Shown here piece by piece: positions 1,988 to 13,558 of a DNA stretch of 43,482 nt; within the stretch, counting starts at the first letter, position 1, and each line of letters begins with the position of its first letter. The notes under the pieces are model-generated. The model had not been told where the DNA came from, did no database searches, and saw only the letters and a program-made list of their open reading frames with translations. The DNA comes from Nitrososphaerota archaeon (GTDB taxonomy: Archaea; Thermoproteota; Nitrososphaeria; Nitrososphaerales; Nitrosopumilaceae): positions 1,008 through 44,489 of the forward strand of contig JABDBR010000010.1 in assembly GCA_013288545.1 (NCBI GenBank), in the 5' to 3' direction. Position numbers and translations under genes: made by a program.

Positions 1988-2512
1988 TTATTTAGCTATT
2001 ATTCCTACATCCATGTGGTTACGCATCATGGAACTCATTGACTTGCCAGATGGTATGACGTGTACATGCAGAGTATAATATCCTGGTTTGTCCACACTAA
2101 ATTTTACAACATACTTGCCTTCTCCTAATTCTTCTGCATCAAACATTGAACCAATCATATTCATGGTACTCATTGGGGCTCCCTCTTCCAACCCAATGCT
2201 TACCTGGGCACCTGTAATTGGTTGTCCGGTATTTCTATCAAGAACCAATAATGTGACCTGAGAATTTTGTCCTACTGATACTTGTTGGCTTGAAACTACT
2301 TTTATTATGACATCTTTTGGAGAATCACTCATCATACTGGACATCATTCCACCACTTTCCATCATGGAGTTTAGAGACAAGTTTTTCCATCCATTTACCA
2401 TCGAAAAAGGAGAACATCCAAATCCAAATGCAGTATTTGAAAACACTCCAAGCATTGTCACTACTGCACCTGTTGCAATGGCAGCCATTATCCAAGTTTT
2501 TCTTGTTACCAT
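1988..2512 (-). CDS. secreted Met-rich protein with Ig-like (YtkA/FixH-type) domain
   Basis: 174 residues. The N-terminal signal segment (residues ~7-30) is followed by a Met/Ser cluster (SMMESGGMMSSMMSD, ~50-65). A beta-sandwich stretch (~68-160) with the pattern PITGAQVSIGLEEG and KPGYYTLHVHV resembles the YtkA/FixH-like fold that occurs in periplasmic copper proteins. The tail adds further Met and a His pair (GKSMSSMMRNHMDV). The Met clusters are typical Cu(I) ligands, so an extracytoplasmic copper-binding or copper-delivery role is likely; that is inference. The palindrome at 2553-2566 stands just upstream of its TATA box, which places it in the putative metal regulon. Confidence 0.7.
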   Translation of the reverse strand: MVTRKTWIMAAIATGAVVTMLGVFSNTAFGFGCSPFSMVNGWKNLSLNSMMESGGMMSSMMSDSPKDVIIKVVSSQQVSVGQNSQVTLLVLDRNTGQPITGAQVSIGLEEGAPMSTMNMIGSMFDAEELGEGKYVVKFSVDKPGYYTLHVHVIPSGKSMSSMMRNHMDVGIIAK

Positions 2513-2552: not shown

Positions 2553-2566
2553 TTTACAAATGTAAA
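2553..2566. promoter_or_regulatory. metal-regulon operator box 1
   Basis: TTTACAAATGTAAA, 6-bp arms around a 2-bp centre. It is centred 47.5 bp upstream of the ATG at 2512, and about 21 bp upstream of a TATA-like stretch near 2537. Confidence 0.7.
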
Positions 2567-2587
2567 AACAAGATGGCAAGAGTAAAT

Positions 2588-3436
2588 CTATTGCTCAGAG
2601 TCAAACGTGCAACTTTTGAGATTTGCGCTTCTGATGTTTCTTGCCATTATAAATGGCATTACAAGTAAAATTGGAATAGATACTGCAATGAATATGGTTT
2701 GGAGTTGAACCTCGTGGGTAGTCAGAAATATTGTAGTGGCGGTAGTGCTAGCACTTGCTCCAAGGCCAAAGAGTAGCATAAATGCAGTACCTGCACACGT
2801 AGGACATCCCACAAAAAGACCAGTTACTGCTCCAATGCTACCCATCTTGCTGCTTTTTCTTGCAATGGAATATGTTGCAGAGGCAAGGGCAAAATTTAGA
2901 CCAACCAAGAAAGAGACTGCAACCAATAGAACCAGATTCAATGGAATTATTTGCAAGCCAGTGTGTTCGGTAAAGAAAATCAATATCATTGGCATGTAGC
3001 CAGGTACATTACAGCAGGGAGAAATTTCTGCATAAGGAGGTTTTGGAAAACCAAAATCAGTAGCATTAATGTCGGGCTTGTAAAGAATTATTCCGGAAGT
3101 AAACCCAAAAAAGATTGCATACCCTATGGCACTTACAAGAAGGATCTGTTTTGATCTCTTATTATTTATGGCATTTGAAATTATTGTAGTAATTGAATCA
3201 TCAGTAGATAGTGTCTTTGTTTTGTAAAATCTGTAAAGGCCAAGCCCTATTGCACCAAATGATGCAAAAATGACAACATATGTAGATACGGCAAGTCTTT
3301 GTAACGCAGGCATTGCAGCTGGGGTTATTATCAGATTGTTATTTTTCCAATAGGCAAGAAATGAGACAGCTATTGCAACAAAACCAACTATTAGCAGCGC
3401 CTTACTAGATCGTGACATCTTCTGACTAGATTCCAA
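2588..3436 (-). CDS. polytopic membrane protein with intramembrane CPTC motif
   Basis: 282 residues with about six membrane helices. An external loop carries paired Cys (SPCCNVPGYMP, ~145), and a helix near residue 215 carries GCPTCAG. A similar C-x2-C within a Gly/Ala-rich helix, followed by a hydrophobic repeat ending in a Q-x-L helix start, recurs in the 166-residue protein at 11808-12308, so the two appear to be distant paralogues. The Cys pairs suggest transfer of a soft metal or of disulfides across the membrane. No named family is recognised with confidence. The operator box at 3484-3497 precedes it and is followed by a TATA-like AATTAATATC. Confidence 0.7.
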   Translation of the reverse strand: MESSQKMSRSSKALLIVGFVAIAVSFLAYWKNNNLIITPAAMPALQRLAVSTYVVIFASFGAIGLGLYRFYKTKTLSTDDSITTIISNAINNKRSKQILLVSAIGYAIFFGFTSGIILYKPDINATDFGFPKPPYAEISPCCNVPGYMPMILIFFTEHTGLQIIPLNLVLLVAVSFLVGLNFALASATYSIARKSSKMGSIGAVTGLFVGCPTCAGTAFMLLFGLGASASTTATTIFLTTHEVQLQTIFIAVSIPILLVMPFIMARNIRSANLKSCTFDSEQ

Positions 3437-3483
3437 TTTTCCTCTTAGAAAAGAAAAGTTTTACAGATATTAATTTACCATAG

Positions 3484-3497
3484 TTTACAATTGAAAA
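3484..3497. promoter_or_regulatory. metal-regulon operator box 2
   Basis: TTTACAATTGAAAA, one mismatch in the second arm (TGAAAA for TGTAAA). It is centred 54.5 bp upstream of the ATG at 3436 and about 21 bp upstream of the TATA-like stretch near 3469. This implies a leader of about 7 nt. Confidence 0.6.
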
Positions 3498-3498
3498 A

Positions 3499-4032
3499 CT
3501 ATTTTGTTGTAAGATTCATGATGATTTTCTCACCATCTTGAAATGCATGATTTCTATAATCCTGAATAGGATTACCGTCTACTGTAACTTTGACATTATA
3601 GTTGTCAAGAGGTATTCCCCAAATGTCAAGAAATTGGCCTAGGGTATAGTCTTGATCTTTGTACGATTCAACATGAATTACCCCATCATTTTGGTGAGTA
3701 TGAAGTGGGGCCATACCAGTCATTCCATAGGTATCAAGTGTATGCATATTCCATAGATGTGAATCGATTCCAATGTTTGCAGGTACTGTTACAGGCTTTC
3801 CATCCATTATCACGGATAGGTGTGGGTGTATGTGCATCATTCCCATGGAATCATGTGGTATAGAACTTGAAGTAGGTATTTTGTAGACAATAGAATTTGA
3901 ATTGGAATTTAACATTCCTATGCTAATGATACCTATTGCAAATGCTATCAGCACACCAACAATGACAAATTTCTTGATTTTTTTATTTGATATTCCCAAT
4001 TTACCTTTTGGGCTATGTTCATCATTTTTCAT
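3499..4032 (-). CDS. membrane-anchored His-rich protein, paralogue 1
   Basis: 177 residues: basic cytoplasmic N-terminus, one membrane anchor (~23-43), then an external domain. The domain has a Met/His string (MGMMHIHPHL, ~63-72), V-P-x-N-I-G-I, a central PLHTHQNDGVIHVES and then YTLGQFLDIWG. The same order of motifs occurs in the proteins at 8232-8768 and 13050-13505, so this is a three-member local family. The conserved H-x-H pairs are good candidates for Cu or Zn ligands. The function is not established; an exported metal-binding chaperone is the simplest reading. Operator box 3 lies upstream and is shared with the divergent YHS gene. Confidence 0.75.
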   Translation of the reverse strand: MKNDEHSPKGKLGISNKKIKKFVIVGVLIAFAIGIISIGMLNSNSNSIVYKIPTSSSIPHDSMGMMHIHPHLSVIMDGKPVTVPANIGIDSHLWNMHTLDTYGMTGMAPLHTHQNDGVIHVESYKDQDYTLGQFLDIWGIPLDNYNVKVTVDGNPIQDYRNHAFQDGEKIIMNLTTK

Positions 4033-4086
4033 TTTTATAATATTCTCTTAATGTAGTTAGTTTTACGGGATATTTAGAATGAATAG

Positions 4087-4100
4087 TTTACAAATGTAAA
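4087..4100. promoter_or_regulatory. metal-regulon operator box 3 (divergent)
   Basis: TTTACAAATGTAAA, identical to box 1. It lies between the His-rich gene starting at 4032 (-) and the YHS micro-gene starting at 4147 (+). TATA-like stretches lie about 20-21 bp on either side (near 4072 and 4113), so one box can serve both promoters. Confidence 0.7.
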
Positions 4101-4146
4101 ATATCATTCTTAAATCTTGGTTCTAACAATAAAAGACTGAAAATAC

Positions 4147-4290
4147 TTGGCAAAAGACCCCGTATGTGGAATGGAAGTGGATGAAAAAACATCAAATGCA
4201 AAATCCAAGATTGATGGAAAGGAATTTTATTTTTGTTGTCCTCACTGCAAGTCAAGGTTTGATAAAGATCCAACAAAGTTCAAGTTCTAA
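4147..4290 (+). CDS. YHS-domain metal-binding micro-protein
   Basis: From a TTG at 4147 a 47-residue protein runs to TAA at 4288. It contains D-P-V-C-G-M near the N-terminus (C7) and FYFCCPHCKSRFDKDP near the C-terminus (C30, C31, C34). This is the YHS pattern found in heavy-metal P-type ATPases and in small copper/mercury-associated proteins. The frame is closed by a stop at 4138-4140, so the start must be close; TTG 4147 is the only start-like codon before the motif. It is expected to be a cytosolic metal sensor or chaperone. It shares operator box 3, with TATA-like TTCTTAAATC about 26 bp before the inferred transcription start. Confidence 0.75.
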   Translation: MAKDPVCGMEVDEKTSNAKSKIDGKEFYFCCPHCKSRFDKDPTKFKF

Positions 4291-4319
4291 TTCTATTTCC
4301 TTACATTTTTTATGTGATA

Positions 4320-4333
4320 TTTTCATTTGTAAA
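4320..4333. promoter_or_regulatory. metal-regulon operator box 4
   Basis: TTTTCATTTGTAAA, one mismatch in the first arm. It is centred 47.5 bp upstream of the ATG at 4374 and about 20 bp upstream of the TATA-like AGTTATACAT. Confidence 0.6.
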
Positions 4334-4373
4334 GTACTAAAGTTATACATCTCTAGCAAGTAATAATTTCGAT

Positions 4374-5219
4374 ATGAGTTATGCAAACCCCAATGTGTTA
4401 ATAGATACAGAATCTGTTTCTAAAAATCTTTCAAGTAAAGATATTAAAATTGTGGAAGTTGATTATGACCCAGAAAATGCATATAGACAAGGTCATCTTC
4501 CTAATGCGGGATTAATCTGGTGGAAAAGGGACATCAATGATCCGGTAAGACGTGACATCATAAGCAAATCTCAGTTTGAAGAACTCATGACAAGAAATGG
4601 AATAACTTCAGAATCTGAGGTTATTTTGTATGGAGATTTTAATAATTGGTTTGCTGCATTCGTATTTTGGATCTTCAAGTATTATGGACACAAAGATGTC
4701 AGAATGATGAATGGTGGCAGGAAAAAATGGGAACTGGAAAAAAGACCATATACAAAGGATGATCCTCAGATTACTCCAACAAAATATGTGTCACAGCCTC
4801 CTGACGAAGGACTTCGTGCATATTTCTTTGATGTTAAAAGAGCATTGGAACGGGATGATACGGTTCTAGTAGATGTAAGATCATCAAAAGAATTTACGGG
4901 AGAGATAACTGCACCTCCAGAATATCCCATGGAAAATGCTCAGAGAAGTGGGCATATTCCTAGTGCAAAAAACATACCTTGGGCAACTGCGGTCAATGAT
5001 ATAGATGGAACTTTCAAATCCATAAGCGAGCTAAAACAAAATTATGAATCCAAGGGAATAACACCTGACAAAGATGTGATATGTTATTGCAGAATAGGTG
5101 AGAGATCATCTCACACGTGGTTTGTTCTCAAATACCTGCTAGGATACACACAGGTTAGAAATTATGATGGCTCCTGGACAGAATGGGGCAACATGATTGG
5201 CAACCCAGTAGAAAAATAG
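4374..5219 (+). CDS. thiosulfate/mercaptopyruvate sulfurtransferase (tandem rhodanese)
   Basis: 281 residues with two rhodanese domains. Domain 1 (~1-125) lacks a catalytic Cys: its loop reads YGDFNNW near residue 86. Domain 2 (~150-275) holds the active loop CRIGER with C239 followed by SSHTWF. This arrangement is normal for SseA/TST enzymes, which move sulfane sulfur from thiosulfate or mercaptopyruvate to cyanide or thiols. The protein is cytosolic with no signal peptide. Operator box 4 stands in front of it, so sulfur transfer seems tied to the metal response, possibly by supplying sulfide or persulfide or repairing metal-damaged FeS centres; that role is inference. Confidence 0.88.
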   Translation: MSYANPNVLIDTESVSKNLSSKDIKIVEVDYDPENAYRQGHLPNAGLIWWKRDINDPVRRDIISKSQFEELMTRNGITSESEVILYGDFNNWFAAFVFWIFKYYGHKDVRMMNGGRKKWELEKRPYTKDDPQITPTKYVSQPPDEGLRAYFFDVKRALERDDTVLVDVRSSKEFTGEITAPPEYPMENAQRSGHIPSAKNIPWATAVNDIDGTFKSISELKQNYESKGITPDKDVICYCRIGERSSHTWFVLKYLLGYTQVRNYDGSWTEWGNMIGNPVEK

Positions 5220-5272
5220 TTGAGTTTTTTGATAAATTCAACATTTATCCTATGCTTGACAAAATTGCTTAA

Positions 5273-6863
5273 GTGAAAATAAAATTGAATTCCAAGAAAA
5301 CTGCCATAATTATAGCAATAGCTGTTTCAATTACAATAGTTATTTTACTATATGATAATTTTGAAAATAATATGGAAAATAAAAATTCAATTAAACCAAG
5401 TGATTCAACCTCTAACAAAACTTTAGCAAACATTCAGACAAGTATTTTCAAAAGCAGATACGTAACTGTTTACTCACTTGCCAATGGAACAGGCCCCAAT
5501 GGTATCCTAGTAGATAGAGAAGGCATGGTCTGGACATCGGGATCTTCATCAAACTCATTATTTAGGCTAGACCCAAGTAATAACACACTAGAGTCTTACA
5601 GCATTCCATCGGAAAGACACGGCAAGACAATGGTTTGGACAATGGTTCAGGACAAAGATGGATTTTTGTGGTTCTCACAATTTAGTGGAAATCCTCTTTG
5701 GATGTTTGATCCCAAATCGGAAAAATTTAGTCTTTTTCATACGAGTTCACCGCCATTTCAAATGAAATTGGATGAAAAATCTGGAAACATATGGTTTACT
5801 ACTTTAGTTGGCAATACTTTGGGGGTAATACAAAAAGTTGAAAATAAAACAAAACCTTCATACAAAATAACTGAATTCCCAACTGGACAAGATACAGATC
5901 CAAGTGGACTATTTCTCAAAGATGGTTCAATCTGGGTGGCAGAATTGGGTGAAGGAAAGATAGTAAAGTTTGATACTCTTAGAAATACAGATGGCTTTGT
6001 AACTAAGTTAACAAAGGCGTCTGTTATACCATCTGACAAAAACCTATTTTCTTCTCCCACTGATGTTCTTGTACAAAGTAATGAAACAGTGTGGGTGACT
6101 GAACATACAGCTAGCACTATTTCGAAATATGATTTAAAATCAAACAACTGGAAAAGATTTTCAACTGCACAAGCAATAGATCAAATTCCAACTTTGCCTT
6201 TTTTGGATGAGGGAGAGTCTAGATCACAAAGGGATATGGTTTAATGAACATCAGGGAAACAGTTTGGCGTTTCTTAATACAGCAGATCATACCCTTACCG
6301 AGTTTAACATACCAAATAATCAGCCACCGGAACCGTCGCCATACATGATTAACAATCCAATAGCCAGGCAAAACATAGGAGCACAAGATGCGTACTATTC
6401 AGCAGTGTTTACGTTGAACCTTTCTCTAGATCCAAAGAATCCTAACAGGCTTTGGTTCTCACAATGGAACAATGACAAAATAGGGGTAGTCGACCGCAGC
6501 AGACCCTTGCCGTTTGATATTCACTCCAATGTTACACAAATTGTGTTATCTGGAAATGATTCTTTACAACAAAAAGCAGTAATCGACATAAATGTAACAA
6601 AAAACCATGATGCCCTTTTAGAAGAAAATGGTAACATAAACAGTGTATTTCTTGCTACGTCTAGTACAATGGTTCCAAATGGCGGATTCACCAAAATTTC
6701 TGCTAAATTTACAAACGATATAATAAATTTTACAAAACCTGACATGCAAGTACAGCTTGTGTTAAAAAACGAAGGTGCAAAGGCAGGAAATTATACGGTA
6801 GGCATTAGTGCAAGCGATGGGCTTGTAACTAAAACAATATTCTTTGATTTGATTATTTTATAA
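5273..6863 (+). pseudogene. Vgb/NHL-like beta-propeller protein split by a +1 frameshift
   Basis: Two frames, 5273-6244 and 6207-6863, together encode one ~529-residue exported protein. It starts at GTG 5273 with a signal anchor (~12-28), then propeller blades with recurrent WTSG, LWFSQF, IWFTTL, IWVAELGEGKIVKFD and VWVTEHTASTISKYD motifs of the virginiamycin B lyase/NHL type. A beta-sandwich tail follows. The first frame reads LPF then derails; the second resumes with WM and GIWFNEHQGN. Removing one T from the six-T run at 6199-6204 joins them exactly. This may be a true mutation, a sequencing error or slippage. No operator box precedes it. A streptogramin-lyase-like activity is not implied. 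Confidence 0.8.
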
Positions 6864-6865
6864 TA

Positions 6866-7153
6866 TTACTCTGAAATTTTTGTTGTATCATTTTTGTTAG
6901 TAGAATGATTCATTCCACAGCCACATGATGACATATTTTTGTTCTTTGACAATCTAGGAACTAACCACATGGACCCTCCTACAACACCACACATGATAAG
7001 ACATGGAAGAAAAGCAAAAAGTACTGGAGTAATAAGATATAATGTAGGATTATGCATAACAAACGAGACATACGTCAAAGATAGTGTCACAATAATTAAT
7101 GATGAAAATAATATAATTTTCTTTTTTCCACTCATTTTAGAATTACAGAACAT
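6866..7153 (-). CDS. small membrane protein with Cys-rich tail
   Basis: 95 residues (89 if the start is the second Met, at 7135) with two membrane helices (~14-34 and ~38-62). The second helix reads LPCLIMCGVVGG and the cytosolic or external tail reads MSSCGCGMNHSTN. Small two-helix proteins with a C-x3-C helix and a Cys/His tail recur in metal-resistance loci, but no named family is assigned here. It is convergent with the broken propeller gene (2-bp gap) and divergent from the TRASH micro-gene. A degenerate half-operator lies upstream but is not counted. Confidence 0.6.
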   Translation of the reverse strand: MFCNSKMSGKKKIILFSSLIIVTLSLTYVSFVMHNPTLYLITPVLFAFLPCLIMCGVVGGSMWLVPRLSKNKNMSSCGCGMNHSTNKNDTTKISE

Positions 7154-7214
7154 TTCTTTTTACATTGGCAATATATCAAAATAGATTATATCAAACTATT
7201 GAATCATGAAATTT

Positions 7215-7228
7215 TTTTCAATTGTAAA
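7215..7228. promoter_or_regulatory. metal-regulon operator box 5
   Basis: TTTTCAATTGTAAA, one mismatch in the first arm. It is centred 45.5 bp upstream of the ATG at 7267; the TATA-like ATTAATATATC lies about 20 bp downstream of the centre. Confidence 0.65.
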
Positions 7229-7266
7229 CTCACGTATTAATATATCACGATTAACAATCATTTTTC

Positions 7267-7437
7267 ATGTTCGGTTTCAAGAAACATTGTCCAGTGTGCG
7301 GAGTGGATGTAAAAAAGGAAACATCACCTGAACGGTTTGGAAAGTATTTTTGTTCAGACGAACATGCAAAAAAATACACTGATCTGCAGATGTTAAAAAA
7401 AGATGAAGAGCCTGACAAGGGTGGATGTTGTTGCTGA
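7267..7437 (+). CDS. TRASH-type metal-binding micro-protein with CCC tail
   Basis: A 56-residue protein with CPVCG (C8, C11) and YFCSDEHAKKY (C29, H33). This gives the TRASH-like order C-x2-C then C-x3-H/C known from archaeal copper regulators and CopM-type chaperones. It ends in GGCCC, an unusual three-Cys C-terminus that could be an extra metal site. There is no signal peptide, so it is probably cytosolic. A TATA box 26 bp before the ATG and operator box 5 just upstream give it its own promoter. The DsbA-like and His-rich genes follow closely on the same strand and may be read from it. Confidence 0.78.
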   Translation: MFGFKKHCPVCGVDVKKETSPERFGKYFCSDEHAKKYTDLQMLKKDEEPDKGGCCC

Positions 7438-7473
7438 TCAATTATTGGTAAAGTGAATTGAAAATATAGGTGA

Positions 7474-8220
7474 ATGATAATAACCATAGATAACCCACGC
7501 AAATTTTACTTTGAGATTACCAAGGTTACAATAGTAATAGGCCTGATATTTCTTGCAGTTGGATATCTAATTGGCAACGTAATGCCAATAACAAAAAATT
7601 CTCCTATTGGTCCTGAACAGTATGCAATTACATCTACTATAGGCGGAGACCAGTTATCAAAGCCAGGAAGCATGAATTTTGTAATACCAAAGTATGTCAA
7701 TTTTCAGGGTTCAGAATCTGCAAATTTGGATCTAGTGGAATTTGGTGATTATCAGTGTCCTTTCTGTGAAAAATTCTTTCAAAATACCGAACCGCAAATA
7801 GTAAAAGATTACATTGCAACTGGAAAAGTCAAGTTTTACTTTGTTGATTTTGATCTAGTGGGTCCTGATTCAATAACACTTAGCGAAGGAGCATGGTGTG
7901 CAGATGAGCAAGGAAAGTATTACGAGTATCATGATTATACCTATTCGCATCAAGGATCTGAAAATTCTGGATGGGGAAGTTTGGATAAAGTCAAGTCGTT
8001 TGCCTCAGATCTGGGTCTTGATGCTCAAAAATTCAATACGTGTCTTGACAGTAAAAAATATGAACCACGGATTCAGCAACTATATCAACTTGGACAAAAT
8101 TTGGGAATAACTGGAACTCCTACCATGTTTATTGGAAATGAAAAAATTGGTTTTACCAAAATTACAGGAGCTCAACCATATGATGTATTCCAACAGGTAA
8201 TGAATTCATATCTGCAGTAG
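7474..8220 (+). CDS. membrane-anchored DsbA-like thiol oxidoreductase
   Basis: 248 residues: an N-terminal anchor (~16-38), then a thioredoxin-fold DsbA domain (Thioredoxin_4 type). The CPFC active site lies at residues 95-98 in the motif EFGDYQCPFCEKFF, and the cis-proline loop is GTPTMFIG (~214-221). It acts outside the cytoplasmic membrane, oxidising or isomerising Cys in exported proteins. The Cys-rich exported proteins of this island are likely substrates (inference). An AGGTGA sits immediately before the ATG and no separate TATA is obvious. It is therefore probably cotranscribed with the TRASH gene 36 bp upstream and with the His-rich gene that follows. Confidence 0.88.
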   Translation: MIITIDNPRKFYFEITKVTIVIGLIFLAVGYLIGNVMPITKNSPIGPEQYAITSTIGGDQLSKPGSMNFVIPKYVNFQGSESANLDLVEFGDYQCPFCEKFFQNTEPQIVKDYIATGKVKFYFVDFDLVGPDSITLSEGAWCADEQGKYYEYHDYTYSHQGSENSGWGSLDKVKSFASDLGLDAQKFNTCLDSKKYEPRIQQLYQLGQNLGITGTPTMFIGNEKIGFTKITGAQPYDVFQQVMNSYLQ

Positions 8221-8231
8221 ACGTGTGTACC

Positions 8232-8768
8232 ATGAAAAAAATTAAAGAAAAGAACCAAACAAAAAAGAGAAGCAAGTTAATTGTATTATTAATAATAGTC
8301 GGAATTGTAACCGTCATTTCATATGTAAGTTACAAAGCAGATAATTCATCGTCTAGTGCTGCTACGGTAATTGATGGAATAGAATGCAATACAAACGAGT
8401 TTACATCATTTCACATTCATGCACATCTTGATTTTTATGTTAATGGTAACCATTTGACTGTACCAGAAAGAATTGGAATAGTTGACAACAAATGCCTCTA
8501 TTGGATGCATACGCATGATGCTAGTGGTGTCATACATATCGAGTCGCCAAAATCACAAGAATTTACTTTGCAACAGTTCATCGATATCTGGAAGACTACA
8601 GAAGGTTTTCCTATTCAGGGATCAACTCCAAAAATATTTGTCAATGGACAATCTGTAAATTCCATCTCAAATGATACAAAAATAAACGGACATGATGAGA
8701 TTGCTCTAGTTTATGGCAACATACCACCTGTAATTCCATCATTTTATCAGTTTGGCCCAGGAGAATAA
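8232..8768 (+). CDS. membrane-anchored His-rich protein, paralogue 2
   Basis: 178 residues from ATG 8232; a GTG at 8223 would add three. Basic start, membrane anchor (~17-37), then the family motifs: FHIHAHLDFYVNG, VPERIGI, WMHTHDASGVIHIES and FTLQQFIDIWK. Unlike paralogues 1 and 3 it has two Cys (in IECN and NKCLYW), one close to the H-x-H cluster. The tail is longer and Pro-rich (PPVIPSFYQFG). It follows the DsbA-like gene by 11 bp; the two extra Cys fit a need for an oxidoreductase. It is convergent with copA, with only 2 bp between the stops. Confidence 0.75.
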   Translation: MKKIKEKNQTKKRSKLIVLLIIVGIVTVISYVSYKADNSSSSAATVIDGIECNTNEFTSFHIHAHLDFYVNGNHLTVPERIGIVDNKCLYWMHTHDASGVIHIESPKSQEFTLQQFIDIWKTTEGFPIQGSTPKIFVNGQSVNSISNDTKINGHDEIALVYGNIPPVIPSFYQFGPGE

Positions 8769-8770
8769 AT

Positions 8771-11251
8771 TTATTTTTCAAGATTTTTCTTTTTGCTTGG
8801 AGGAGACCATCGCTTGAGCAATAAAGAACTACTTGTCACAGAAACAGAACTTGCTGCCATGGCAAGTCCTGCAAGAGCAGGATATAGGAGACCCAGGCCT
8901 GCTATCGGAATTAATACAATATTATACACAAAGGCATAGAAGAGATTTTGCCTTATCTTGCTTACAGTCTTTTTACTTATCTCTATTGCAGAGACTACAT
9001 CCATCAAGTCATCCCTGATGAGAACTACCTTGCCTGCTTCCAATGCTATGTCAGTTCCACTCCCTATGGCAATTCCAACATCTGCCTCAGTCAAGGCAGG
9101 TGCATCGTTTATTCCATCCCCAATCATGGCTATTTTTCCTTCTTTTTGCAACTGCTTTATGATATCAGACTTGCCAGATGGCATTACATTTGCAAATACT
9201 TTGTCTATAGCAAGATCTTTTGCTACAGTCTTGGAAGTCCTTTCGTTATCTCCTGTAAGCATTACAACTTGAATTCCCATTTTTCTTAGTGACTGGATAG
9301 CAAGCTTGGCACTTGGTTTTGGAATATCTAAAAGTGCAACAAGGCCAATTAGATCCTCATCTAACGCAACAAGTATTACCGTCTTTCCTTGCTCTTGCAA
9401 TTTGGAAAGATACTGTCTTGCAGATTCAATGTTTATTTTTTCACCTTCCATAAAGCTTGGACTTCCTACCAGTATGTTGTTACCATTGTAAATCGCTCTT
9501 ACTCCCTTTCCTGGTACTGCAGAAAATTCCATAGTTTCAGCCAAATTAATTTTCAAATTCATAGCATATTGTACTATGGACTTGGCAAGTGGATGTTCAG
9601 AATTTTTTTCTGCTATTGCGGCAATTTTAAGCATCTTGTGATCAGCACTGATTGTACTTGCATTATTTTCTGATGCAAATGCAATTTGCTTCATAGATAT
9701 GATATCTGTGACTTGCGGTTTTCCTTGTGTTAGAGTCCCAGTCTTGTCAAAGACAGCAATCTTTATTCTTCCAAGCATTTCAAGCGAGTCTCCACCTTTG
9801 AAGACAACTCCGTTCTGTGCAGCCTTACTCATTCCAACCATTACTGCAGTAGGAGTTGCAAGCCCTAGAGCACATGGACATGCTACAACAAGTATTGCAA
9901 CTGCTGGAATTATTGCTGTAGCTATCTGGTGTGCCCCTACTGGAATTATCAAGTACCATACCATGAAAGTTACAAGTGCCACAGCAATTACCATGAATGC
10001 AAAATATCCTGCAATTTTATCCACCATTCTCTGCATGGGTGGTTTTCTGCCCATAGCTTCTTCGACTAGCTTGACAACTTGTGCAAGCATTGTATCGCTT
10101 CCAACCTTTTCTGCCCTGATTACCAGTACCCCTTCTCTGTTTATTGTTCCGCCTATAATGTAATCACCAGATTTCTTGCTTACAGGCATGGATTCACCGG
10201 TGATCATGGACTCGTCAACTGCCGAATTTCCTTCCAAAACTAGGCTGTCGACTGGAATCTTTTCTCCCGGCCTTACAAGAATGACATCTCCTGGCTTTAT
10301 GATCTCAATTGGGACCTCAATTTCCTGCCCATCTTTTTTTATTCTTGCAGTCTTTGGTTGTAGTTCGAGCATCTTTCGTATTAGTGATGATGCCTTACCC
10401 TTTGTTTTGTTCTCAAGATATTTTCCTAAAATTATAAAAGTCACAACTACTGATGCAGCATCAAAGTAGAGGTTGTGCCATGCTGGAGTTGGAAATGTAT
10501 TGATTGCACTAAACAAGTATGCCGCAGTGGTTCCAGTTACTACCAGAGTATCCATGTTTGCAGACTTCATTTTTCCTATCCTGTATGCTCCGATGTAAAA
10601 CCTGCTTCCCGTAACAAATTGCACAACACTTGCACAAGCAAAAACAAGATATGCCGCAGTAATGGTTCCTGCCAATGGGACAAACGAGAAATATTCAGGA
10701 TACCCAAATATTAGAACTGGAATTGTAAATATTAGTCCGATGAAAAAGAATTTCTTGAGTTTATTTGCTTCAACTTCTTCTGCTGATGCAGAAAGATCCT
10801 CACTTAGTATTTGATAACCACTTTTGGTTATGACTTGACGTATATCAGAAAGAGAGTGTAGCGTTTGGTTATATTCAATTAGGATCTGCCCGTTTCCAAA
10901 ACTCACTGATACATATCGTACTCCTTCAAATTCCTTCAATTTTTTTTCTAGTATTTCAGCATCACTAGAATCTGTCATGTTTCCTATTTTGACTGTGAGT
11001 TTTTCATAAACTACCTTGTAACCAATTTCCTTTATTGATTTTTCAATTGTAGCAAGATCAGTTATTGTAGGATCAAACTCCAGGGTGGCTTTTTCTGCAG
11101 CTAGATTGACTTCACATTTTGTTACTCCCTTGAGTTCTGTCACATAATTTTGAATGGATGTGACACATCCAGCACAATGCATACCACCTATCTTTAACGC
11201 AGTACGACGTGTCAGACTATGTTCTGTCTTGGCTGTGACATTACCTTCCAT
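8771..11251 (-). CDS. copA: Cu(I)-exporting P1B-type ATPase
   Basis: 826 residues. N-terminal metal-binding domain with GMHCAGC (C26, C29). A second HMA-like domain (~84-150) has lost its CxxC and reads GNMTDSSDAE there. Then come eight membrane helices with CPC (458-460), TGES (351-354), DKTGTLT (phospho-Asp 502), SEHPLAK, TGDN and GDGIND (711-716). The last two helices hold YN (776-777) and MAASS (798-802), the signature of the Cu(I)-selective IB-1 class. It pumps Cu(I) out of the cytosol. The promoter faces the TRASH regulator gene across a 93-bp gap with a perfect operator palindrome centred 47.5 bp before the ATG, consistent with copper induction. Confidence 0.95.
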   Translation of the reverse strand: MEGNVTAKTEHSLTRRTALKIGGMHCAGCVTSIQNYVTELKGVTKCEVNLAAEKATLEFDPTITDLATIEKSIKEIGYKVVYEKLTVKIGNMTDSSDAEILEKKLKEFEGVRYVSVSFGNGQILIEYNQTLHSLSDIRQVITKSGYQILSEDLSASAEEVEANKLKKFFFIGLIFTIPVLIFGYPEYFSFVPLAGTITAAYLVFACASVVQFVTGSRFYIGAYRIGKMKSANMDTLVVTGTTAAYLFSAINTFPTPAWHNLYFDAASVVVTFIILGKYLENKTKGKASSLIRKMLELQPKTARIKKDGQEIEVPIEIIKPGDVILVRPGEKIPVDSLVLEGNSAVDESMITGESMPVSKKSGDYIIGGTINREGVLVIRAEKVGSDTMLAQVVKLVEEAMGRKPPMQRMVDKIAGYFAFMVIAVALVTFMVWYLIIPVGAHQIATAIIPAVAILVVACPCALGLATPTAVMVGMSKAAQNGVVFKGGDSLEMLGRIKIAVFDKTGTLTQGKPQVTDIISMKQIAFASENNASTISADHKMLKIAAIAEKNSEHPLAKSIVQYAMNLKINLAETMEFSAVPGKGVRAIYNGNNILVGSPSFMEGEKINIESARQYLSKLQEQGKTVILVALDEDLIGLVALLDIPKPSAKLAIQSLRKMGIQVVMLTGDNERTSKTVAKDLAIDKVFANVMPSGKSDIIKQLQKEGKIAMIGDGINDAPALTEADVGIAIGSGTDIALEAGKVVLIRDDLMDVVSAIEISKKTVSKIRQNLFYAFVYNIVLIPIAGLGLLYPALAGLAMAASSVSVTSSSLLLKRWSPPSKKKNLEK

Positions 11252-11291
11252 GATACCATAATTACGGCTAAAGGATACTTATCATCAGACC

Positions 11292-11305
11292 TTTACAATT
11301 GTAAA
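11292..11305. promoter_or_regulatory. metal-regulon operator box 6 (copA / regulator)
   Basis: TTTACAATTGTAAA, a perfect 14-bp palindrome midway between copA and the divergent regulator gene. The centre is 47.5 bp from the copA ATG and 46.5 bp from the regulator ATG, just upstream of a TATA-like stretch on each side. Confidence 0.8.
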
Positions 11306-11344
11306 CCTCCATTTTCAAATAGGCTATGAGCGTATAATCTATCA

Positions 11345-11773
11345 ATGACCATAAAGCTGGATGAGATTGATCTTGCTCTACTAGAATCTCTTGTAGCAGA
11401 TGGAAGAAAGTCTTTTCGCCAGATTTCAAGAGAGATAAGAGTCAGTGCTCCCACTGTAAAATTACATTATGAAAGACTGGTCAATATAGGATTAATCAAG
11501 GGAGTGTCGGTAGATTTGGATTTTGGCAAATTGGAGACAAAGACAAGTGCAAAGCTAGACCAAATTAGACACAAGGCAGTCAAAGGACACAAGATAAAAT
11601 TTGACAAGGGATTACTAGTCAAGATTGCATGTGATTATTGCAATGGTCCAGTTCATGACAAGCCCAGCATCCTAAAAGTTGGAAACCAGGAGAGATTCTT
11701 TTGCTGTACGTCTTGCAAGACTTTATACAATGAAAAATATCGTGGAAGAATAGAATCATTATCTAACAAGTAA
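11345..11773 (+). CDS. Lrp-type HTH / TRASH-domain copper regulator (CopR/CopT-like)
   Basis: 142 residues. Residues ~5-60 form an AsnC/Lrp-type helix-turn-helix (DLALLESLVADGRKSFRQIS then SAPTVKLHYERL). Residues 94-130 form a TRASH metal sensor: C96-x2-C99, then C120/C121 and C124 in FFCCTSCKTLY. The Lrp ligand-binding RAM domain is absent. The same architecture is known from the Sulfolobus copper regulator next to copA. Here it is also divergent from copA and shares operator box 6. It probably senses Cu(I) and binds TTTACA-N2-TGTAAA boxes through the whole island. Box position upstream of TATA suggests activation rather than occlusion (inference). Confidence 0.88.
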   Translation: MTIKLDEIDLALLESLVADGRKSFRQISREIRVSAPTVKLHYERLVNIGLIKGVSVDLDFGKLETKTSAKLDQIRHKAVKGHKIKFDKGLLVKIACDYCNGPVHDKPSILKVGNQERFFCCTSCKTLYNEKYRGRIESLSNK

Positions 11774-11807
11774 CATTACTTGAAGACGGGAAAATCAGTT
11801 CCAAAAC

Positions 11808-12308
11808 TTAGATCTTTTTTGAACAACTTGTAGTAATCTTTTTGTGAACTGAATAATATGCCCAGATCAGAATAACTACTGAAAGCAGACGCAGATGAAT
11901 TTGATAGTTTGATAGAAATGTAGATATCGCAAGCCCTGCTGTACCAAGGCTTGTTGCAAGAAATAATGCAATAGAACTGCAACTGGCACATGCACTGGTT
12001 GCCACTCCAACCGAAGAACCGGAAAAAAGAGAACCCAAAGATTTTGAGATGGAATGTCTTAGTGCATAAATGTTCATGCTTACCACAATCCCTGTCAATG
12101 TGGCTGCAGCAGTTGACAGCAAAAAGCCTGGCCAAGCCCCGTCTCTCATGTAAAAAATTATGCTTGGTGAGAAAAACAAGAGTTGATCAAATACATTGAA
12201 GACAATCCAGAATGGTATTGCCACAGATGTTGCAATCAGTACATAGACCTTGCTTGAGAATACCATCTTTGCTCCTAGCGAATATTTTGACATGGTATCA
12301 TTTTCCAT
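11808..12308 (-). CDS. membrane protein with intramembrane CASC motif
   Basis: 166 residues, about four membrane helices. One helix near residue 105 reads TSACASCSSIALFLATSLG, and the following pattern (G-rich turn, then IHLRLLSVVIL) mirrors the GCPTCAG region of the larger protein at 2588-3436. A Cys also sits in the C-terminal tail (TTSCSKKI). A TATA-like GATTTAAGG lies 26-30 bp upstream of the ATG at 12308, so it may have its own promoter although it also follows the Cys-rich gene by 52 bp. An alternative start is the Met at 12293. Function unknown; a role in moving metal or disulfide electrons is a guess from the Cys pair. Confidence 0.68.
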   Translation of the reverse strand: MENDTMSKYSLGAKMVFSSKVYVLIATSVAIPFWIVFNVFDQLLFFSPSIIFYMRDGAWPGFLLSTAAATLTGIVVSMNIYALRHSISKSLGSLFSGSSVGVATSACASCSSIALFLATSLGTAGLAISTFLSNYQIHLRLLSVVILIWAYYSVHKKITTSCSKKI

Positions 12309-12360
12309 AATATCTAAGATTTTCTTTTGTGCCTTAAATCTGTTTTAGCGTGCTTTCTTT

Positions 12361-13041
12361 TCAAGTTCCACAGGTATCGGACAGGTTGTAAAAGTCAGCA
12401 ACTTGTTTTGATGTAAAGTGATATTCAGTTATCATCTCCTTTGCTACGCCTTCATTAAAGTACCAGTGCCAGCACTTGCAACAACAAGGACCTCCTTCAT
12501 TGGACATTTTTGCTGCTGCGGTTAAAGTTGCATTTTCCTCTGAGGTTAATATCGTGTTAGCGTCATATGCTAACATCTTTTTTACCTGTACTACGGGAAT
12601 ATCATAAGGGTTTGGAGGAACATCTAAAATATAGGAGAATTTTTTCATGCCCTCAATCTGTTCATTGTATTTTTTTGTATCAGTTATCACGCCACAGCAC
12701 TGTCCACCCATGTTTGTAAAATTGTCAGGAAGCTGCATGGTATCCTTTGGGCCATTGCATGATATGGTAAGATTATCAAGATGTCTTAATACTGGATCTA
12801 CAGATGTTGTGAAATTTTTAGATTGTATTTGCAAAAGATAATTCTTGCTTTGTCCAAGCAACCCTGTACAAGCAGCTATTGTTGGGATGCTTTGATTTGT
12901 TGAAACAGTGGAGAGTGTTGTATCATAACCATGAGTAGCTAATGGTTTCTGGTAAAGAATGTATACACCTGTGACAGATCCGGTCACAACTATTGCAATA
13001 GAAATGGCATACAGGATTTTTTTGTCAATTTGAATTTTCAT
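12361..13041 (-). CDS. exported Cys-rich protein with CCCKCWHWY motif
   Basis: 226 residues with an N-terminal signal anchor (~9-29). Two Cys clusters stand out: MGGQCCGVITD (~111-121) and GGPCCCKCWHWYFNEG (~183-198), plus single Cys at ~57, ~65, ~94 and near the C-terminus. Ten Cys in an extracytoplasmic protein suggests metal binding or disulfides. The dense C-C-C-x-C-W-H-W-Y string looks like a cofactor or metal site. No family is recognised with confidence. It starts 8 bp after the stop of His-rich paralogue 3 and so is very likely in the same operon behind operator box 7. Confidence 0.7.
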   Translation of the reverse strand: MKIQIDKKILYAISIAIVVTGSVTGVYILYQKPLATHGYDTTLSTVSTNQSIPTIAACTGLLGQSKNYLLQIQSKNFTTSVDPVLRHLDNLTISCNGPKDTMQLPDNFTNMGGQCCGVITDTKKYNEQIEGMKKFSYILDVPPNPYDIPVVQVKKMLAYDANTILTSEENATLTAAAKMSNEGGPCCCKCWHWYFNEGVAKEMITEYHFTSKQVADFYNLSDTCGT

Positions 13042-13049
13042 GGCTCTAG

Positions 13050-13505
13050 TTAATGATTTGATGTTATATTCATGATAATGGATTCATCATCCTTGAAAAC
13101 ATGATTTCTATAATCAGATATGGGCTCACCATATACAGATACACTAACGGATTTTCCTTTCAAGTCCAATCCCCAGATATCAAGAAATTCGCCCAGAGTG
13201 TAATTTCTGACAACCTTTGATTCGACATGGATCATTCCGTCTGCAGTATGAGTGTGCAATGGTGCCATACCCTTCATGCCGTACTGGTCAAGTGAATGAT
13301 CTTTCCATAGATCAGAGTCTATTCCTACATTTTGTGGCACAAAGTATGGTTTTCCGTCTACGTTGAGGTATAGACGTGGATGTATGTGCATTAGCATTAT
13401 TTCATCAGTTGAAGATTGATCCGTGGTTGGTTTTGTCAGCATGAAACTAATTCCTATTACAATAACAACAATTCCTACAATAACAAATCCCTTTTTCTTT
13501 TCCAA
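13050..13505 (-). CDS. membrane-anchored His-rich protein, paralogue 3
   Basis: 151 residues, the shortest of the three paralogues. Membrane anchor at ~5-24, then MHIHPRLYLNVDGKP, VPQNVGI, MAPLHTHTADGMIHVES and YTLGEFLDIWG, ending NHVFKDDESIIMN. It is closest to paralogue 1, sharing the DQYGMKGMAPLHTH and ISDYRNH segments, so these two probably arose by the more recent duplication. An exported metal-binding role is inferred from the His pairs. It is the first gene of a unit with the Cys-rich gene. The TATA-like GTTTAATATC is centred 26 bp before the ATG and operator box 7 lies upstream of that. Confidence 0.75.
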   Translation of the reverse strand: MEKKKGFVIVGIVVIVIGISFMLTKPTTDQSSTDEIMLMHIHPRLYLNVDGKPYFVPQNVGIDSDLWKDHSLDQYGMKGMAPLHTHTADGMIHVESKVVRNYTLGEFLDIWGLDLKGKSVSVSVYGEPISDYRNHVFKDDESIIMNITSNH

Positions 13506-13544
13506 CTCTTTTTAGCTTGAATCTGAGATATTAAACAACAATAG

Positions 13545-13558
13545 ATTACAATTGTAAA
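13545..13558. promoter_or_regulatory. metal-regulon operator box 7
   Basis: ATTACAATTGTAAA, one mismatch at the outer base; the inner 12 bp are a perfect palindrome. Centred 46.5 bp upstream of the ATG at 13505 and about 20 bp upstream of the TATA centre near 13531. Confidence 0.7.

Follow-up and report, generated by a model that had tools for sequence, protein, structure and literature searches.

Palindromic boxes as candidate operators of a CopR/CopT-type regulator in a copper gene island of ammonia-oxidizing archaea

Which DNA site and which protein control the copper genes of ammonia-oxidizing archaea? The question is raised by a stretch of 43,482 nucleotides from a Nitrososphaerota archaeon of the family Nitrosopumilaceae (assembly GCA_013288545.1, contig JABDBR010000010.1; the whole stretch is called the window). 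In one part of it, called the island, copies of the 14-letter palindrome TTTACA-N2-TGTAAA (the box) lie in front of a gene for a copper-transporting ATPase (copA), a regulator gene and several other genes. Ammonia oxidation in these archaea depends on copper enzymes; the passages of PMC7785015 on cop genes call their regulation an open question and give no cop operator. On the sequence comparisons described here, the boxes are very probably operators paired with the CopR/CopT-type regulator of the island.

The sequence-only reading of this DNA had listed seven boxes with at most one mismatch each. All seven are present where it placed them, and they are the only seven matches in the 43,482 bases. 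Three are exact and four have one mismatch. In 100 dinucleotide shuffles of the window the mean number of boxes is 0.31 and the maximum is 2, against the 7 observed. The boxes and their TATA-like elements, with the scores of the promoter model described below, are as follows.

2553-2566, unstranded: box TTTACAAATGTAAA, 5' of the Met-rich/YtkA-like gene (1988-2512, minus strand); TATA-like element TCAAATAT at the fixed offset, score 6.9.
3484-3497, unstranded: box TTTACAATTGAAAA, 5' of the CPTC membrane protein gene (2588-3436, minus strand); TATA-like element ATTAATAT, score 6.4; the variant letters of the box are kept in sister loci L066 and L067.
4087-4100, unstranded: box TTTACAAATGTAAA, amid the divergent genes for His-rich protein 1 (minus strand) and the YHS micro-protein (plus strand); TATA-like element CTAAATAT (7.8) on the His-rich 1 side and a weak TTAAATCT (0.8) on the YHS side.
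4320-4333, unstranded: box TTTTCATTTGTAAA, 5' of the rhodanese gene (plus strand); TATA-like element TTATACAT, score 8.0.
7215-7228, unstranded: box TTTTCAATTGTAAA, 5' of the Cys-rich TRASH-like micro-gene (plus strand); plus-side score 7.2.
11292-11305, unstranded: box TTTACAATTGTAAA, amid the divergent copA (minus strand) and regulator (plus strand) genes; TATA-like elements ATAAGTAT (10.1) and TCAAATAG (7.0); the box recurs at orthologous loci.
13545-13558, unstranded: box ATTACAATTGTAAA, 5' of the gene for His-rich protein 3 (minus strand); minus-side score 8.6.

Nine promoters had been assigned to these seven boxes, and the assignment is borne out by a TATA-like element that follows the box after 9 bp and is strong in eight promoters and weak in the YHS promoter. 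Counted from the box edge, the start codon of the TRASH micro-gene is 38 bp away, those of the regulator and His-rich 3 genes 39 bp, and those of the Met-rich, rhodanese and copA genes 40 bp; the YHS (46 bp), CPTC (47 bp) and His-rich 1 (54 bp) genes start further off. To describe this arrangement in relatives, frames 3' of boxes were taken from 61 loci (the window and loci L066-L125, fetched around regulator orthologues), and 123 distinct promoters were aligned on the box. With only box-to-start distances of 28-45 bp admitted, the commonest distance is 38 bp (42/123 promoters) and 84 of the 123 fall within 37-40 bp. The box logo across the 123 promoters is YTTTACAWWTGTAAAR, and a TATA-like TTAAATAT occupies positions 24-31 of the aligned promoters, which leaves 9 bp between box and TATA. 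The B recognition element (BRE) would lie in this interval, with the box directly upstream of it.

A position-specific model of the DNA 3' of the box was trained on 104 promoters from relatives, with the window, L066 and L067 excluded. Eight of the nine named promoters score 6.4-10.1, values reached by 0-0.075% of random window positions and by 0-0.24% of shuffled intergenic DNA. The YHS score of 0.8 is reached by 4.7% and 9.9%, respectively. On the five box sides to which no promoter had been assigned, the scores stay at background (-8.0 to -1.0). Two further candidate promoters were rejected on these scores: one at the gene for a 95-residue membrane protein on the minus side of the 7215 box (-8.0) and one at a pilin-like gene on the plus side of the 13545 box (-5.9).

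The boxes are conserved. Sister loci L066 and L067, whose regulators are 96% and 94% identical to that of the window, have all seven. Identity across the source genome, L066 and L067 extends to 96 of 98 columns within the boxes and to 360 of 506 columns in the flanks (Fisher p = 6.5e-11). Of the four boxes with one mismatch, three have the same letters in all three genomes. The spacing is strict. In 1.06 Mb of loci, the half-sites TTTACA and TGTAAA occur 107 times with a spacer of 2 and never with spacers of 0, 1 or 3-8. When the centre is restricted to W-W, the count for the true half-site is 97, against a mean of 0.14 and a maximum of 4 for 59 letter permutations of it.

The regulator gene is itself preceded by a box in most relatives and is divergent from copA in the window, the archaeal CopR/CopT arrangement. 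The two genes are as follows.

11345-11773, plus strand: CopR/CopT-type regulator of 142 residues, with an AsnC-type winged helix-turn-helix (HTH) at residues 5-52 and an archaeal TRASH domain at residues 95-131.
8771-11251, minus strand: CopA, a Cu(I) P1B-type ATPase with two HMA domains (TIGR01511, 570 bits, cut-off 397).

By sequence, the regulator belongs with the archaeal CopR/CopT proteins. Its N-terminal HTH matches PF13404 (37.4 bits, cut-off 27) and its C-terminal domain matches PF08394 (33.5 bits, cut-off 27); the orthologue in L097 falls under the latter cut-off (24.3 bits). Cysteines C96, C99, C120, C121 and C124 are invariant in 49 aligned regulator sequences. A RAM domain (PF01037) was not detected at an expectation value (E) of 0.01 or lower in the window regulator and three orthologues; the longer TRASH regulators L270 and L271, from other Thermoproteota, do have one. 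The AlphaFold model of the regulator (mean predicted local distance difference test score 79.3, predicted TM score 0.54) supports the HTH fold and carries no information on dimers. The HTH superposes on the Lrp-family structure 2e7w at 1.2 Å over 59 columns (E 0.021), and the best structure match of the HTH model is 7fby (E 7.5e-5). Among the 60 loci fetched from relatives, some of them short, 31 contain a CopA match.

CopR-like matches with upstream DNA number 62 in the 61 loci, window included. Within 150 bp upstream, 41 of the 62 have an exact box and 43 have a box with at most one mismatch, and in 40 of these 43 the nearest box is 30-39 bp from the regulator start. At least one box is present in 51 of the 60 fetched loci. 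A second set of 75 usable upstreams comes from named records, which overlap partly with the genomes of the fetched loci; a box with at most one mismatch is present in 53 of them and an exact box in 45. By title, boxes are found in 7/10 Nitrosotalea, 8/8 Nitrosarchaeum, 3/4 Nitrosotenuis, 5/6 Nitrosopumilus and 3/3 Nitrososphaeraceae records, and the remainder have broader or mis-binned titles. Three regulator contigs with a box (L183, L185 and L195) come from bins with the titles Phycisphaerae bacterium, Amylibacter sp. and bacterium ES-bin-123, which probably reflects binning contamination. Exact boxes number 19 in five genomes of family f8 (genera g29 and g44), and for about 15 of them a regulator-like match is no more than 1 kb away. 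Among regulators of other lineages, no box was found in the 300 bp upstream in the four readable ones of 12 loci (L261-L272), a small negative; these are L262 (a short form), L270 and L271 (RAM and TRASH) and L272 (without a visible TRASH domain).

Box number tracks the presence of the regulator. In family f1, with presence defined as a match at E <= 1e-30, the mean number of exact boxes is 3.46 in the 54 genomes that have the regulator and 0.82 in the 67 that lack it (Mann-Whitney p = 2.7e-10, a nominal value because the genomes are related). A control pattern averages 0.22 and 0.21 copies in the same two groups. The copA gene was searched for in 28 genomes without a strong regulator match, and seven have a relative at E <= 1e-30. 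In two of these the relative is more than 45% identical (three genes, one with an in-frame stop), and none of these three loci has a box at one mismatch or fewer. Two loci without a box or a strong regulator match, L291 and L292, carry frames of about 40 codons upstream of copA that are Cys-rich and, by eye, metallothionein-like.

The claim that no box occurs outside the island is true of the rest of the window, where about 30 kb hold none at one mismatch or fewer, and is not true of the genome. The source assembly (1,385,677 bases in 57 contigs, 85% complete, with about 15% of the genome missing) contains 29 such boxes, compared with 17 for a reversed control pattern. Twenty-two lie outside the island, two of them exact, and all 22 are inside mechanically called open reading frames (ORFs) of at least 80 codons, which include aIF2-gamma, glmS, trpB and an amino-acid permease (identified by eye in translation). 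None of the 22 in the source assembly is thus a good box before an unrelated gene; many such boxes would have refuted the proposal, according to the sequence-only reading.

The exact box within the aIF2-gamma coding sequence is present in many genomes (for example L016:3651-3664, and also L206, L212, L213, L217, L219, L220, L222, L225, L229, L231, L236, L242, L243 and L244). It is probably a coding coincidence and a pitfall for genome-wide box counts. A sample of 20 boxes was drawn from genomes with no strong match to the regulator; coding frames hold 13 of them, and aIF2-gamma accounts for seven of the 13.

Several results weigh against a simple pairing of box and regulator. The TATA of the YHS promoter is weak. 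No box at one mismatch or fewer is present in 19 of the 62 regulator upstreams, in 22 of the 75 named-record upstreams or in any of the seven regulator upstreams titled Nitrososphaera. Nine of the 60 fetched loci have no box anywhere, including all four of genus g51, and in the four g51 genomes none of 10 exact boxes is at the regulator (within 1 kb). In family f1, an exact W-W box is absent from four of the 54 regulator-bearing genomes, and at least two boxes are present in 11 of the 67 genomes without the regulator. All of these counts, favourable or not, are not independent, because the loci were chosen for holding the regulator and the genomes are related.

Seven of the 20 sampled boxes also weigh against the pairing since they lie outside coding frames in genomes without a strong regulator match. 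They are at a DsbD-like gene (L207 and L209), before a gene for a 262-residue protein (L208), between genes for exported-looking proteins (L218), without clear context (L205 and L215), and 49 bp before a CTP-synthase-like gene (L224:2545-2558). In such genomes the regulator may have been missed, another protein may bind, or the boxes may be due to chance. A regulator-bearing genome (G060) has an exact box (L238:2525-2538) 62 bp before a PRPP-synthase-like gene; the genes at all these boxes were named by eye. The boxes at the CTP-synthase-like and PRPP-synthase-like genes, which have no obvious copper role, speak against perfect specificity in relatives.

The proposal that the boxes mark a metal regulon, with the protein encoded at 11345-11773 as the candidate binder, is supported by the boxes in both sets of regulator upstreams, by co-occurrence, by the three box-less copA loci and by conservation. 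Copper is taken as the likely metal because CopA scores over the TIGR01511 cut-off. The regulator would bind the palindrome YTTTACAWWTGTAAAR (14-16 bp) as a homodimer, with each subunit on one half-site. With the end of the box 9 bp from the TATA and directly upstream of the expected BRE, the bound dimer would sit beside transcription factor B (TFB) and off the TATA box. Cu(I) on the invariant TRASH cysteines would most likely alter the bound dimer so that it aids TFB and the TATA-binding protein. The targets switched on by copper would be CopA for Cu(I) export, Met- and His-rich copper binders and thiol/disulfide proteins, and a symmetric box amid divergent genes could serve both sides. Pyrococcus furiosus CopR forms an octamer when it lacks the TRASH domain (PMC7830388), so a smaller unit would be expected for a protein in which no RAM domain is detected; a dimer on a single palindrome is the suggested form. 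Given the operator-regulator pairing, activation is the probable mode and repression is clearly the less favoured one.

The rival that survives best shares the pairing and reverses its sign. The regulator would then repress from the boxes until Cu(I) releases it, as has been suggested for Thermococcus onnurineus CopR and as is the case for CopY; this takes a minor part of the confidence placed in the pairing, and we regard it as rather unlikely. According to passages of PMC7830388, data from T. onnurineus pointed to a repressor role for CopR, gel-shift binding of P. furiosus CopR fell most with copper and silver, and copR itself was repressed in vitro. The bacterial CopY site with the same letters serves as an operator for repression (PMC7253601). 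Against repression, the box is upstream of the TATA and not over it, a placement that suits activation, and knockouts in S. solfataricus and H. salinarum together with P. furiosus data are reported in the same passages of PMC7830388 as showing that CopR activates copA.

Another soft metal, such as silver, mercury or zinc, is an unlikely ligand. TRASH domains bind several soft metals, and several island proteins have no known family. These points are countered by the CopA match over the copper-ATPase cut-off and by boxes in relatives that precede the gene for a plastocyanin-type copper protein. Among four metals, copper and silver affected P. furiosus CopR binding most, according to the binding passages of PMC7830388.

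A different binder, for example a CopY/BlaI-type repressor, is improbable to a still greater degree. Bacterial CopR-CopY regulators are, we take it, of the BlaI/MecI type, PF03965. Such a binder is suggested by the presence of TTTACAATTGTAAA within the published L. lactis copB and yahC operators (PMC7253601, operator listing) and by boxes kept in some genomes without a strong regulator match. Against it, the search of the source genome (85% complete) gave no PF03965 match, and matches are few and marginal in 19 box-bearing relatives, with four at E <= 0.001 and only two over the cut-off, by 1.5-2.2 bits; box number also tracks the TRASH regulator. A CopY/BlaI protein was rejected as the binder on these searches. 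An extended general promoter element would fit the near-fixed box-TATA distance but is rejected, with hardly any probability left to it, since all 22 out-of-island boxes of the source assembly are inside ORFs and exact boxes number only 0-17 per genome across 201 genomes.

Under the preferred pairing of boxes with the TRASH regulator, the remaining genes 3' of the boxes in the window are as follows.

1988-2512, minus strand: Met-rich protein with a YtkA-like domain (PF13115, 33.5 bits, cut-off 25.9).
2588-3436, minus strand: CPTC-containing membrane protein; no Pfam family at E <= 0.1; its group is boxed upstream in six loci.
3499-4032, minus strand: His-rich protein 1; no Pfam or NCBIfam match.
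4147-4290, plus strand: YHS micro-protein of 47 residues (PF04945, 55.1 bits, cut-off 30.3).
4374-5219, plus strand: rhodanese with two rhodanese stretches.
7267-7437, plus strand: Cys-rich treble-clef/TRASH-like micro-protein, with a weak DUF2116 match only.
13050-13505, minus strand: His-rich protein 3.

Judging by spacing, several of these genes probably head operons. The rhodanese gene is probably in one operon with a Vgb-lyase-like gene (5273 onward), the TRASH-like micro-gene with a DsbA-like gene (7474-8220) and the gene for His-rich protein 2 (8223-8768), and the His-rich 3 gene with the frames at 12361-13041 and 11808-12308. The Vgb-like, DsbA-like, His-rich 2 and 166- and 226-residue proteins would thus probably belong to the regulon as operon followers. 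The three His-rich paralogues (3499-4032, 8223-8768 and 13050-13505) share an HxHP...LHTH...IHVES-like pattern and have no Pfam or NCBIfam match over the cut-off.

In relatives, 235 box-frame pairs were collected, which are not independent events and include some spurious frames (antisense or short). The largest groups are the regulator (44), CopA (38, perhaps including some YHS frames), DsbD-like (14) and DsbA-like (11) proteins. These are followed by His-rich proteins (10), Met-rich proteins (9), TRASH micro-genes (8), a 73-residue protein (7), and the rhodanese and CPTC groups (6 each). The smallest groups are plastocyanin-type (5), HtrA-like (4) and DoxX (3) proteins, and a TFB paralogue is present in one locus. 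This TFB (TFIIB) paralogue (L091:17913-18797; genus g17, Nitrosotenuis) has a one-mismatch box 39 bp upstream, and copper might switch a general factor too through it. Some genomes of genus g11 (L115, L117, L120, L125, L227 and L230) concentrate many boxes in a single region, with as many as 17 exact boxes in a genome and with DsbA-like, plastocyanin-type and HtrA-like genes 3' of the boxes.

With a strict 14-letter operator at a near-fixed promoter position, the copper regulon could be listed from sequence in cultured strains and environmental genomes. The operator also hints at a copper-handling role for the Met- and His-rich proteins and the micro-proteins without a known family. Its coincidence with the CopY operator would provide a clean case of how unrelated winged-helix sensors arrive at one DNA site.

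The sequence-only reading knew of no described thaumarchaeal copper regulon with this site. In the open-licence literature of PubMed Central, a collection outside which most subscription journals lie, no paper was found that gives this operator for ammonia-oxidizing archaea, and when five box sequences were spelled out, the only paper containing any of them deals with bacterial CopY (PMC7253601). The kind of system is already known from Pyrococcus CopR (PMC7830388, passages on CopR); what is new is the operator in ammonia-oxidizing archaea, its N2 spacing, the regulator without a detectable RAM domain, and the regulon.

The closest comparison is with the Lrp/AsnC-TRASH protein CopR of P. furiosus and T. 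onnurineus. In the passages of PMC7830388 on CopR, the P. furiosus motif is TTNNCAWWWTGNNAA, a semi-palindrome directly upstream of the BRE; the Pyrococcus and Thermococcus copper genes are clustered, with the 14 most up-regulated genes within 28 kb; and CopR has a His-rich tail in the full protein and forms an octamer without its TRASH domain, from which a RAM domain may be supposed. The island is similar in its HTH and TRASH regulator divergent from copA, in a related motif placed upstream of the predicted BRE, and in the clustering of copper genes. It differs in that the centre of TTNNCAWWWTGNNAA has three bases and that of the island box has two. The three-base form TTNNCA-N3-TGNNAA is present in none of the 62 regulator upstreams, compared with 43 of 62 for the N2 form, and the P. 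furiosus spacing was rejected for these archaea. The island regulator also has no detectable RAM domain and no His tail, and the regulon content differs.

Like the Sulfolobus/Saccharolobus CopT/CopR and N. viennensis CopT systems, the island is an archaeal cop cluster with copA and its regulator type. The relevant passages of PMC7785015 describe such clusters as copA, copZ and copT, with copA2-copZ-copT in N. viennensis, where CopT is 38% identical to the Sulfolobus regulator. Two promoter motifs for copper limitation given there differ from the island box.

The bacterial CopR-CopY repressors share copper export among their targets and are unrelated as a regulator family; the window regulator matches AsnC/TRASH and not PF03965. 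Their Gram-positive operator is TACANNTGTA, with the proposed consensus RNYKACANNYGTMRNY, and the box at 11292-11305, TTTACAATTGTAAA, is letter-identical to two CopR-bound sites of L. lactis, those of copB and yahC (PMC7253601, Table 2 and the operator passages). The shared letters are read as convergence because no PF03965 protein is found in the source genome. The outermost bases are R...Y in the CopR-CopY consensus and mostly C/T...G/A in the archaeal logo. We lean, by a small degree, towards an ancestral copper regulon of ammonia-oxidizing archaea in which a RAM-less HTH and TRASH dimer on the strict operator YTTTACAWWTGTAAAR would activate genes on both sides, and in which this operator would have converged letter for letter with that of the unrelated Lactococcus CopR/CopY repressor, probably in opposite senses and differing mainly at the outermost base pair.

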